IMG/VR virus record: IMGVR_UViG_3300037189_005128
Span: 1 to 21,620 of that record
Length of the DNA stretch: 21,620 nt
Direction: 5' to 3' (one strand)
Origin: a virus
The notes under the pieces are model-generated. The model was not told where the DNA came from. It saw only the letters and a list, made by a program, of their open reading frames with translations, and made no database searches. Shown here in pieces: positions 6,861 to 9,860 of this stretch (positions are counted from its first letter, which is position 1; each line of letters starts with the position of its first letter). Made by a program: the position numbers and the translations under genes.

Positions 6861-7498
6861 TATCCGATCCTCCGAATGCGACGGAGCCGTGCCTCCTCGC
6901 GGCGCACTCGCGCCTGGTTAGAGAGCGCAATCTGGTTCATTGAGAGGGCAGAGACATCGGAGTTCCCTGACTGAACCTGCCACTGCTGGAACGCTACGCG
7001 ATCAGAGAGCAGTCGATTGAACGCTTCTGCCTGCGCCCATACGCGGACGGATGAGATGGCAGAGACATCCATATCTGTCGTTGCGGTGCTGGTAGAGAGC
7101 TGAACAAACCCAGAGTAGCCGAAGATCTTCAGCGTAGCTGGGGATACGAGCGAGTAGTGCGGCGGGAAGAAGAGGATGTTGTTGTGGAGTTCCCAGCCAG
7201 AGTCTGGACCATCACCGCTTGATGGCAAGAGGCTCTCGCGGTACTGACCTGAACTGTCGTAGACATCTACGCGGAATGGCCACGACACATCGGTCAGAGC
7301 AATGGAGTTGACTGCGCCAGAGATTGGCTGCGTGACCGCTGTTGTCTGAATTGCTTCCTTTGGATAGAACCCATTGACCCAGTCAATGCCTGAGTTGATG
7401 AGGTCGGTGACCTCTGTGTCGCTCCACGTCGCCCCATTAGGGTCGCGCAGATCTGACCGTACCGATGTCCTAAGTGCTGAGAGTGTCTCTCCTGCCAT
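6860..7498 (-). CDS. Head-tail adaptor (connector) protein
   Basis: A 212-residue protein likely to sit below the portal and link head and tail. The N-terminal helix pattern L-R-x-x-V-R-S-D-L-R-D, then W-S-D-T-E-V-x-x-L-I-N-S-G-I-D (about 8-40), is typical of phage head-tail connector proteins that follow the capsid gene. A beta-rich middle and a C-terminal Arg-rich helix (R-R-E-E-A-R-L-R-R-I-R-R) follow. The gene overlaps the glycosyltransferase by 29 bases, an unusually long overlap here, and its ribosome binding site is weak (GGAA close to the ATG), so translation may depend on the upstream gene. It ends in a TAATG overlap with the Dit-like gene. The functional call depends on pattern and position. 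Confidence 0.65.
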   Translation of the reverse strand: MAGETLSALRTSVRSDLRDPNGATWSDTEVTDLINSGIDWVNGFYPKEAIQTTAVTQPISGAVNSIALTDVSWPFRVDVYDSSGQYRESLLPSSGDGPDSGWELHNNILFFPPHYSLVSPATLKIFGYSGFVQLSTSTATTDMDVSAISSVRVWAQAEAFNRLLSDRVAFQQWQVQSGNSDVSALSMNQIALSNQARVRREEARLRRIRRIG

Positions 7499-8717
7499 TC
7501 TTCCAAATCCCCTTATGCTCTACTGCCCACTTGAAGGCATCGGCCCATTCCTTGGCACGATCCTTATAATCGTATTCTTTGAGTACCCGCTCCTTGGCGG
7601 CACCTGCAAGCTGCTCCCGCAGGTCCTTGCTTCTAACTAAACTCTTGACTGCGTCAAACCATTGCTGTCGACCACGGACGACAAGTCCGTCAACGCCGTG
7701 GTTGACCACTGAGTACGGAGCATCTCCATACTTGAAGCCTTCGCCAATGAATGCGGCGCCCACCATTGCGTACTCCAGCCAGTGAAGCTCCGACTTACAG
7801 CGGTCAAACTCGTCACCGCCGAGTGGTGCAATCCCAATGTCGCCGTGGCTTGCTGCTAGGGTCTCGGCAAACTGGCGGATGTTCTCAACGTATGGATATG
7901 CCTCATCAAAGAACGGTGCGATGACGTGGTCTGTTCCTGGGTTTACTCCGATGAAGACGTTCCAGAGTTCCTTGCGGAGGTCTTGGATTCCCTTGCCAGC
8001 GTATCCACCCTCCCACTTTCCTCGGTCGTCTGGGTGTCCGCCGTAGTCGCGCATCCGCGCCGTGCTGCCGTAATAGACCACACGTGGCTTGTCACCGCCG
8101 TGTTCTGGGCGAGTGCGACTTGTCGTATAAATCGAAGGATCAATTGCATTTCTAATCACCTGAATGTTGCTGTTGAGATGGGAATACGCATCCTTGATTG
8201 GACCCGTGCTGACGGTAACGAGGTCAGCCCTCCGTGTCATCCGCTCAACAAGCGGAATTTCCGCCTGAACATCTGGCCAGTAGCCATTCCACTTGCGGAT
8301 TTGGAAGTGGTTGTCGTCCGTTTCGTAGACTATTGCCTTGTCAAACTTCTCTGACTCAAAGGCTGGCCACATCCACTCGGTGATGGAGTCACGAAGTTCC
8401 ATCTTGTGTGGGTGAGTGAGGATCTTTGCTTGATCCTTTGTGGCGTCTCCGCAGGTGTTACATTTAGCGGAGCAGTTGTAGTAACGGCGGAACATCACAA
8501 CGTCCGCCCAATCAATGTCACTGGTGTCAACGGCAAGGAGTCCCTTGCGCATCGCTTCATCTTGCCGCATTCCTTCAGCACCAGGTTTGGCGATGAAGTT
8601 GACCTTGTCAATGTGTCTGACGTTGATGCCCATCTTCTTCCACTCTTCGTCAAACATATGACCACGGAAGTAGGCGCAAGGTCCCTGCTCGGCAGTACCC
8701 CATACGAGAATGTTCAT
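7470..8717 (-). CDS. GT-B glycosyltransferase (group-1 / GT4-like)
   Basis: A 415-residue enzyme that probably transfers a sugar from a nucleotide-sugar donor. The C-terminal half has GT-B signatures: N190-A-I-D-P-x-x-Y, a V-V-Y-Y-G-S strand (213-218), I-G-I-A-P-L (294-299) and K308-S-E-L-H-W-L-E315-Y-A as the donor-binding E-rich motif. The N-terminal half is divergent and contains a C82-x3-C86-x2-C89 cluster with nearby H102 and H104, which looks like a metal-binding knuckle that I do not know from standard GT4 enzymes. The gene sits between the capsid and adaptor genes, so the acceptor may be a virion protein; DNA or host glycan are alternatives. Start at ATG 8717 with AGGAGGG at 8728-8722, after a structured leader. 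Confidence 0.8.
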   Translation of the reverse strand: MNILVWGTAEQGPCAYFRGHMFDEEWKKMGINVRHIDKVNFIAKPGAEGMRQDEAMRKGLLAVDTSDIDWADVVMFRRYYNCSAKCNTCGDATKDQAKILTHPHKMELRDSITEWMWPAFESEKFDKAIVYETDDNHFQIRKWNGYWPDVQAEIPLVERMTRRADLVTVSTGPIKDAYSHLNSNIQVIRNAIDPSIYTTSRTRPEHGGDKPRVVYYGSTARMRDYGGHPDDRGKWEGGYAGKGIQDLRKELWNVFIGVNPGTDHVIAPFFDEAYPYVENIRQFAETLAASHGDIGIAPLGGDEFDRCKSELHWLEYAMVGAAFIGEGFKYGDAPYSVVNHGVDGLVVRGRQQWFDAVKSLVRSKDLREQLAGAAKERVLKEYDYKDRAKEWADAFKWAVEHKGIWKNGRRDTLST

Positions 8718-8731
8718 CCGACCCTCCTGAG

Positions 8732-8747
8732 CGAGCCTAGAGGCTCG
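8732..8747 (-). promoter_or_regulatory. Leader hairpin next to the glycosyltransferase ribosome binding site
   Basis: CGAGCC (8732-8737) and GGCTCG (8742-8747) form a perfect six-base stem with a four-base loop. In the minus-strand transcript it ends three bases before the AGGAGGG of the glycosyltransferase, so it could influence access to that site. Confidence 0.6.
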
Positions 8748-8753
8748 TTTATT

Positions 8754-8782
8754 GCTGGGGGGTACTTAGATACCACCCCTGC
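8754..8782 (-). promoter_or_regulatory. Leader hairpin with a bulge
   Basis: GGGGGGTA (8757-8764) pairs with TACC-A-CCCC (8771-8779), giving eight pairs around one bulged base and a six-base loop. GC at 8754-8755 and GC at 8781-8782 add two outer pairs across a T-T mismatch on the plus strand. Probably a structured part of the glycosyltransferase leader. Confidence 0.5.
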
Positions 8783-8791
8783 TATTATCGT

Positions 8792-8815
8792 GGCTCCTGG
8801 GGCTTCCTAGGTGCC
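8792..8815 (-). promoter_or_regulatory. Imperfect leader hairpin
   Basis: On the minus strand GGC-A-CCT-A-GG and CC-C-AGG-A-GCC form a symmetrical stem of three, three and two pairs broken by single mismatches, with a three-base loop. It is weaker than its neighbours and could be chance on its own. Confidence 0.35.
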
Positions 8816-8824
8816 TCTACGACG

Positions 8825-8833
8825 ATTCTAGCA
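8825..8833 (-). promoter_or_regulatory. Candidate extended -10 promoter for the glycosyltransferase
   Basis: TGC-TAGAAT on the minus strand matches TGn plus 5 of 6 bases of TATAAT. It lies just after the GC-rich hairpin and about 107 bases before the start codon. There is no clear -35 box. A near copy, TGC-TAAAAT, precedes the RmlD-like gene. Confidence 0.35.
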
Positions 8834-8843
8834 TACCCTACTC

Positions 8844-8869
8844 GCCCCACCCCCCGAAGGGGGCGGGGC
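8844..8869 (-). terminator. GC-rich hairpin with UUCG loop after the capsid gene
   Basis: On the minus strand GCCCCGCCCCC and GGGGGTGGGGC form an 11-pair stem (one G-U pair) closed by a UUCG tetraloop, 19 bases beyond the capsid stop codon. No U-run follows on the minus strand, so it may be an inefficient terminator or a barrier that protects the capsid mRNA end. On the plus strand it is followed by only TTT. Confidence 0.55.
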
Positions 8870-8888
8870 TTTCAGGAATCCTTACGGA

Positions 8889-9860
8889 TTAGACAGAGAC
8901 CGTGGCCTGTGTCTTCAGGATGCGATAGCGTGCGCCAGCCTCATCGAGGAGGAGGGAGCCGAAGCGCATCTTGTAACCCACGATTGCGCGCTGCGCGAGT
9001 GGGTCAGAGTGGTCGCCACCTGGAGCCACAAAGTAGCTCTGAAGGGTCTGCGAGTCACCAATCGTGTAAGCGTCTGGTCCGAGGAACAGCGCGTTGTACA
9101 CGTTGCCTGCCGAGGCGCCTGCGGTCGCATAGACCTTGGCGTCCGACGAGACGATGAAGCGTACGCCAGCAAACTGACCAATCTCACCAGTGAGAAGTGG
9201 GGTCTGATTGACATACTTGTTTGCTTCGATCCAGCCGTTGACGCTGGTGTCTGACACAAGGTCATACTCCTGCGCAGGGTGGATGATGCAGCGATACGTG
9301 CCGTCAGCGAACTGCGGAACGTTTGCACCCTTGAGGCGAGCAACCATCTGCTTCACGAACGAACCATTCAACACGCCAGCAACGGCAACAGCCGAGTTAG
9401 CAGTGTTGGTCGTGATCGTCGCGGAACCAGTGGCACCAAAGATCGCAGCCGTTGAGGCTGAGCTATGGATGTTGTCGCGGACAAGCGTGTCCATTGAGCG
9501 AACGGCCTTGTAGGCAACACGCTCAGCAGCAATGCTGATGAGGTCGTGTGGCGAGTCAAGGTTGGCGAGGTCAGAGACCGCAACCGTCGCGCCGTACTGC
9601 GCAGCGGTGAAGTACTCAGACGAGATCGTCAGGGCATCGTCCGTTGGAGCGGTGCCTTCCGTCAGGGTCGTCGTGCTGACCGCGAGATCGGCATAACGAG
9701 CATAACGAAGGGTGTTCGTACCCTTAATGAAGCGAGCTGGGACATAAAGCCCTGGCATCGCGTGAACAGCACGGGCGCGCAGTTCCTCTTCGGCACGGGC
9801 AGCAACAAGCTGCGTGACGAGATCAGAAAAGTTCGTCGTGCTGGTAGTCGTGGTAGCCAT
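8889..9860 (-). CDS. Major capsid protein, N4-gp56 family (HK97 fold)
   Basis: A 323-residue protein that builds the icosahedral head. Family features visible in order are a K-G-T-N-T-L-R-Y segment (46-53), L-T-E-G-x-x-P-T (66-73), Q-Y-G-A-T-V-A-V-S-D-L (87-97), G-E-I-G-Q-F-A-G-V-R-F-I-V-S-S-D (about 225-240), Y-T-I-G-D-S-Q-T-L-Q and G-D-H-S-D-P-L-A-Q-R-A, followed by G-Y-K-M-R-F-G. These match the N4-gp56 family of HK97-fold capsid proteins, which occurs in podophages and other tailed phages. A Thr/Ser-rich N-terminus precedes the fold, without a delta-domain, which agrees with a separate scaffold gene upstream. The start at ATG 9860 has AAGGAG with an 8-base spacer, the strong site expected of a highly made protein. 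A GC-rich hairpin follows the stop. Confidence 0.92.
   Translation of the reverse strand: MATTTTSTTNFSDLVTQLVAARAEEELRARAVHAMPGLYVPARFIKGTNTLRYARYADLAVSTTTLTEGTAPTDDALTISSEYFTAAQYGATVAVSDLANLDSPHDLISIAAERVAYKAVRSMDTLVRDNIHSSASTAAIFGATGSATITTNTANSAVAVAGVLNGSFVKQMVARLKGANVPQFADGTYRCIIHPAQEYDLVSDTSVNGWIEANKYVNQTPLLTGEIGQFAGVRFIVSSDAKVYATAGASAGNVYNALFLGPDAYTIGDSQTLQSYFVAPGGDHSDPLAQRAIVGYKMRFGSLLLDEAGARYRILKTQATVSV

Follow-up and report, generated by a model that had tools for sequence, protein, structure and literature searches.

In phage T7 the terminator T-phi, a GC-rich hairpin that immediately follows the major capsid gene, is leaky, and the genes that come later are read less. Among dispersed short sites, the stoperators follow the 13-bp consensus GGTGGMTGTCAAG. 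The SAS/ESAS sites of cluster K mycobacteriophages are also 13 bp long; they lie just upstream of start codons and are confined to the non-structural half (PMC3203893). Here, these systems are set beside a gap that follows the capsid gene in an uncultured freshwater phage, known from a window of 21,620 nucleotides (the whole stretch of DNA that was analysed). The SAS/ESAS sequence GGGATAGGAGCCC has no match in the window at two mismatches, and the stoperator consensus has three two-mismatch matches, which is near chance, none of them in the gap.

The gap (8718-8888, minus strand) runs for 171 nt from the capsid stop to the glycosyltransferase start, a length that a first-pass annotation had reported and that the two flanking open reading frames confirm. 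That annotation had also proposed four successive hairpins, which might form a capsid-mRNA stabiliser plus a regulated leader, or an independent small RNA. The features needed for the discussion are the following:

8889-9860, minus strand: major capsid protein gene (phrog_1357; PHROG match)
8844-8869, minus strand: hairpin 1, whose GC-rich stem of 11 pairs carries a UUCG loop, located 19 nt beyond the capsid stop codon (folding and conservation)
8825-8833, minus strand: extended -10 (TGCTAGAAT) of a putative promoter, suggested by the hexamers of relatives, where TTGACA or TTGACT lies 17 nt upstream, within hairpin 1
8757-8831, minus strand: copy of the dispersed ~70-bp element (CTAGAATC..CGTAGAGGCACCTAGGA..CAGGAGCCACG..GGGGTGGTATC..; profile match)
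8757-8779, minus strand: inverted repeat 3 (GGGGTGGTATCTAAGTACCCCCC), which forms the element's 3' part and is a weak candidate for a conserved RNA fold
8732-8747, minus strand: hairpin 4 (CGAGCCTCTAGGCTCG), optional in relatives (folding of relatives)
8718-8729, minus strand: ribosome-binding region of the glycosyltransferase gene (AGGAGGGTCGG; from the sequence)
7470-8717, minus strand: glycosyltransferase gene (phrog_7162; PF13524; PHROG/Pfam match)

The gap matches no Rfam family at gathering score, a search for tRNAs gave none, and cultured phages hold no near or distant DNA match. Close relatives of the capsid were sought in prokaryote genomes in order to name the host, and none was present. 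A gene for an ERF-family ssDNA annealing protein (PF04404) lies at the window edge, at 10-528.

A conserved RNA hairpin behind the capsid gene

Protein searches of viral contigs yielded 71 loci for the capsid and 58 for the glycosyltransferase, in the gene order of the window, which together represent 56 distinct homologous gaps. These fall into four types: type A of 139-174 nt, to which the window belongs, type B of 97-100 nt, type C of 104-105 nt and type D of about 76-94 nt. Not one of the 56 gaps lacks hairpin 1, which is long, GC-rich and found in every type despite sequence change, with a mean folding z of -3.65 and 95% of values below -2. In the window itself, the hairpin at 8869-8844 has the 11 pairs and the UUCG loop first annotated. 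When the minus strand is folded, as that annotation had suggested, a 201-nt stretch does better than its dinucleotide shuffles (z -4.2, 1 of 200), and most of the excess comes from hairpin 1, which gives z -3.2 alone, the next 126 nt giving z -2.3.

The strand on which this structure is selected can be read from its wobble pairs. In the sense of the capsid mRNA, the 37 distinct stems contain 49 G.U pairs and not a single A.C mismatch, while the opposite strand has 18 A.C mismatches and folds more weakly in 32 of the 37. Whole pairs have also been replaced, for example AU, GC and CG at one and the same position among the relatives. Wobble restricted to G.U in the capsid-mRNA sense, combined with pair-for-pair replacement, implies that selection acts on the RNA transcribed with the capsid gene. 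The covariation check in homologous gaps therefore supports hairpin 1; it lends nothing to hairpins 2 and 3. Of the four hairpins proposed, the first thus stands as a conserved RNA structure, and it is the only one within the gap; the four are not confirmed as equivalent, hairpins 2 and 3 having no covariation support, hairpin 4 being optional, and these further inverted repeats being weaker than the first.

Hairpin 1 shares with intrinsic terminators a GC-rich stem-loop in the RNA sense. It has no U-run after the stem, as the first-pass annotation had observed, and the relatives agree: their 10 nt after the hairpin hold 1.2 T on average and 3 at most, so that it is not a canonical intrinsic terminator. 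Terminator prediction gave no match at the site. The hairpin is best read as the end or stabiliser of the capsid message, or as a leaky attenuator of it. Of the earlier idea of a capsid-mRNA stabiliser, the part that is well supported is a hairpin other than a simple U-tract terminator, found in all clades and with its wobble pairs in the mRNA sense; stabilisation as such is a proposed function.

Promoter-like site and leader

Every type B sequence carries TTGACA, then 17 nt, then TAGAAT, TATGCT, TATGAT or TAAAAT, which amounts to 10-11 of the 12 consensus bases of a sigma70-type promoter, and the -35 (TTGACA) falls within the loop and 3' arm of the hairpin. In much of type A the spacing to TAGAAT is again 17 nt, and the upstream hexamer reads TTGACT, TTGGCT, TGGACT or TAGACT. 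In the window's subclade the -35 has been lost, with no recognisable -35 left, and the extended -10 TGCTAGAAT has been kept. The hexamers conserved in relatives suggest that this site would act as a promoter, and the putative promoter that overlaps the hairpin in them supports the idea that transcription of the next operon starts separately. The gaps of types C and D have the hairpin, with neither a promoter-like site nor the element, which implies that the hairpin and the promoter/element parts are separable. The copy of the element in the capsid-glycosyltransferase gap is absent from all relatives of types B to D.

The leader behind this site is conserved in sequence and not in fold. Across 25 relatives its folding is modestly above chance (mean z -1.8); the 5' half reaches a mean z of -2.6, hairpin 3 a mean z of -1.1. 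For hairpin 3, RNAalifold gives a consensus structure with essentially no energy, at -0.29 kcal/mol. Hairpins 2 and 3, which covariation does not support, both coincide with the element copy at 8831-8757. About half of the relatives do without hairpin 4. It comes and goes (as GCGAGCCTCTATGCTCGC in relatives) between otherwise near-identical gaps, and the sequence of its loop, GCCTCT, has its complement, AGAGGC, where the leader starts. The evidence does not support the proposal of a regulated leader in the form of an RNA fold: the fold is not conserved, and the conserved sequence belongs to a DNA-level element whose other copies also lie antisense in genes. Nothing in the evidence favours an independent small RNA.

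A dispersed element of about 70 bp

Scanning viral contigs for the conserved leader string AATCAACGKAGAGGC revealed copies elsewhere in the same phages and in other phages. By profiles built from them, most type A genomes have 2-6 copies and reversed sequence has none; over all fetched loci there are 168 distinct copies of at least 20 bits, compared with 0 in the reversed sequences. A profile made from copies outside the capsid-glycosyltransferase gap has its best match in the window at 8830-8767 (E 2.9e-8), the best match in the reversed control being 0.41; this profile is not wholly independent, its first seeds having been the leader, and its matches extend at least 13 unselected bases beyond the seeds. 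The consensus over 15 contexts is AGAATC-aaCGgAGAGGnncCTAGGAGCCACGgAGAGCGnCG...GGTGG, and in 84 of the 168 copies CGNAGAG occurs twice at exactly 21 bp, or two helical turns. The leader copies have drifted from the element core CTAGGAGCCACGKAGAG. In cultured phage records the consensus has no match. The core pattern AGA-N5-CTAGGAGCCACGNAGAG matches once in 84,980 prokaryote genomes, which is chance level, and a host-genome repeat was rejected on that ground.

Uncultured phages, related and unrelated, carry the element at many sites and in both orientations. Its noncoding contexts are the capsid-glycosyltransferase gap, the upstream regions of G010 and G013 and the neighbourhood of HNH endonuclease genes, which adjoin it in three contigs. 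In the sense direction it is found in coding DNA in the linker of a peptidase-like gene and, in another frame, in a small ORF; in the antisense direction it lies in the linker of a Rad52_Rad22-family annealase (PF04098). A 55-aa ORF with the element, again in sense, sits directly behind an HK97-type capsid gene (phrog_10) that has a UUCG hairpin of its own (L238, L134, L312, L166). The order of capsid gene, UUCG hairpin and element is thus repeated behind a capsid with no sequence similarity to that of the window. A purely coding origin was rejected, as frames and strands differ between the contexts. Genes found only in element-bearing genomes were considered as candidates for binding factors; they include many accessory genes and did not decide the matter. 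Two side observations concern the neighbourhood of copies. In L310, L349 and L387, which are other phages, antisense copies stand between thioredoxin-like and HNH endonuclease genes, a possible homing endonuclease link. The noncoding regions of L284 5401-9900 (G010) are rich in TGTTACATTGTT and TATTGACTATCA repeats, which are probably early promoter/operator arrays.

Inside genes, the element is under constraint. Homologs of the Rad52-like gene were fetched by their N-terminal domain only, regardless of the element, and nearly all carry it; at four-fold sites they show a synonymous diversity of 0.09 within the element, compared with 0.34 in the domain (permutation p=1e-4). For the peptidase gene, whose homologs were fetched by the C-terminal domain, the corresponding values are 0.05 versus 0.22 (p=0.002). 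Synonymous sites frozen in both genes tested imply a constraint on the nucleic acid, whatever the frame and strand. One peptidase homolog (L526) has no element and a linker of equal length, aligned gap-free, and simple insertion of the element was rejected for this reason.

Competing explanations and known systems

We propose that the gap is a transcription-unit boundary made of two unrelated parts. Hairpin 1 would protect the 3' end of the capsid message, make downstream transcription leaky, or both, so that capsid would be produced in excess. The start region of the putative promoter, with its -10 at 8830-8825, coincides with the 5' edge of the element copy; the element would be a DNA site that a putative phage-encoded DNA-binding factor probably reads, and which here may mark or control where the glycosyltransferase/tail transcript begins. 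As a whole, this two-part model has, in our judgement, an even chance of being right. Hairpin 1 could instead be a true intrinsic terminator that works without U residues, leaving the downstream genes wholly dependent on the overlapping promoter; the very strong stem speaks for it, as does the putative promoter that clades A and B have directly downstream, yet it has no U-run and in clades C and D, where the hairpin comes without a promoter-like site, the tail genes would need read-through, so we regard it as unlikely. More doubtful still is a leader acting as a structured cis-regulatory RNA or as a put-type RNA antiterminator for the late operon: its position, where a long operon is predicted to have its 5' end, and the folding of its 5' half would suit such a role, whereas the fold of hairpin 3 is not conserved, the two conserved stem-loops that put-type RNAs have at the transcript start are not seen here, copies occur antisense in genes, and conservation is in sequence and not in structure.

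For the element, we tentatively propose, at somewhat below an even chance, an undescribed and widespread phage DNA site of ~70 bp whose direct repeats are spaced by two turns of the helix. It would be read by a putative phage-encoded system, be under selection inside genes in either orientation and in several frames, and be placed repeatedly behind capsid genes of unrelated families. A mobile or selfish repeat, the phage counterpart of the Rickettsia palindromic elements, that enters intergenic DNA and permissive linkers would account for the many contexts, the two orientations, the linkers of two genes and the adjoining HNH endonuclease genes. We consider it improbable, as the equal linker of the element-less peptidase homolog shows no insertion and synonymous freezing over many lineages points to constraint. 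The similarity could also derive from protein, if the element-like leader were a decayed small gene coding 'RINVEAPxxxVERA': leader and two coding contexts would give INVEAP in the same reading frame, but the frame is another in the small coiled-coil-like ORF, the strand is opposite in the Rad52-like genes and the synonymous sites are frozen. This last reading, which we hold to be very improbable, appears largely refuted by the differences in frame and strand. For phages it is unusual that a long DNA motif is selected inside coding sequence whatever the frame or strand, and such selection suggests that abundant uncultured freshwater phages have in common a system for regulation, replication or recombination. 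The hairpin at the capsid end, with its sense-strand wobble pairs and a putative promoter in its 3' arm, would be a compact and testable way of setting capsid versus tail expression.

SAS/ESAS, stoperators and selfish repeats of the Rickettsia kind have defining features that do not fit the element. Like the SAS/ESAS (PMC3203893), it is an asymmetric repeat that recurs across related phages and is rare in the genomes of hosts, and the string TAGGAGCC is common to both; unlike them, it is ~70 bp long and has copies in the interior of genes, in antisense and behind capsid genes. The stoperators of cluster A mycobacteriophages (PMC9283540) are dispersed asymmetric repressor-binding sites too, some of them within genes, whereas the element is far longer and has 2-6 copies per genome. 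With the Rickettsia palindromic elements, which are selfish DNA (PMC2229807, PMC10969869), it shares the occurrence of repeat DNA both between and inside protein genes; it differs from them in that no insertion or length change is seen and in its synonymous constraint. Hairpin 1 resembles T-phi of T7 in being GC-rich and in its place immediately after the major capsid gene, but it has no U-run and in relatives is overlapped by the promoter.
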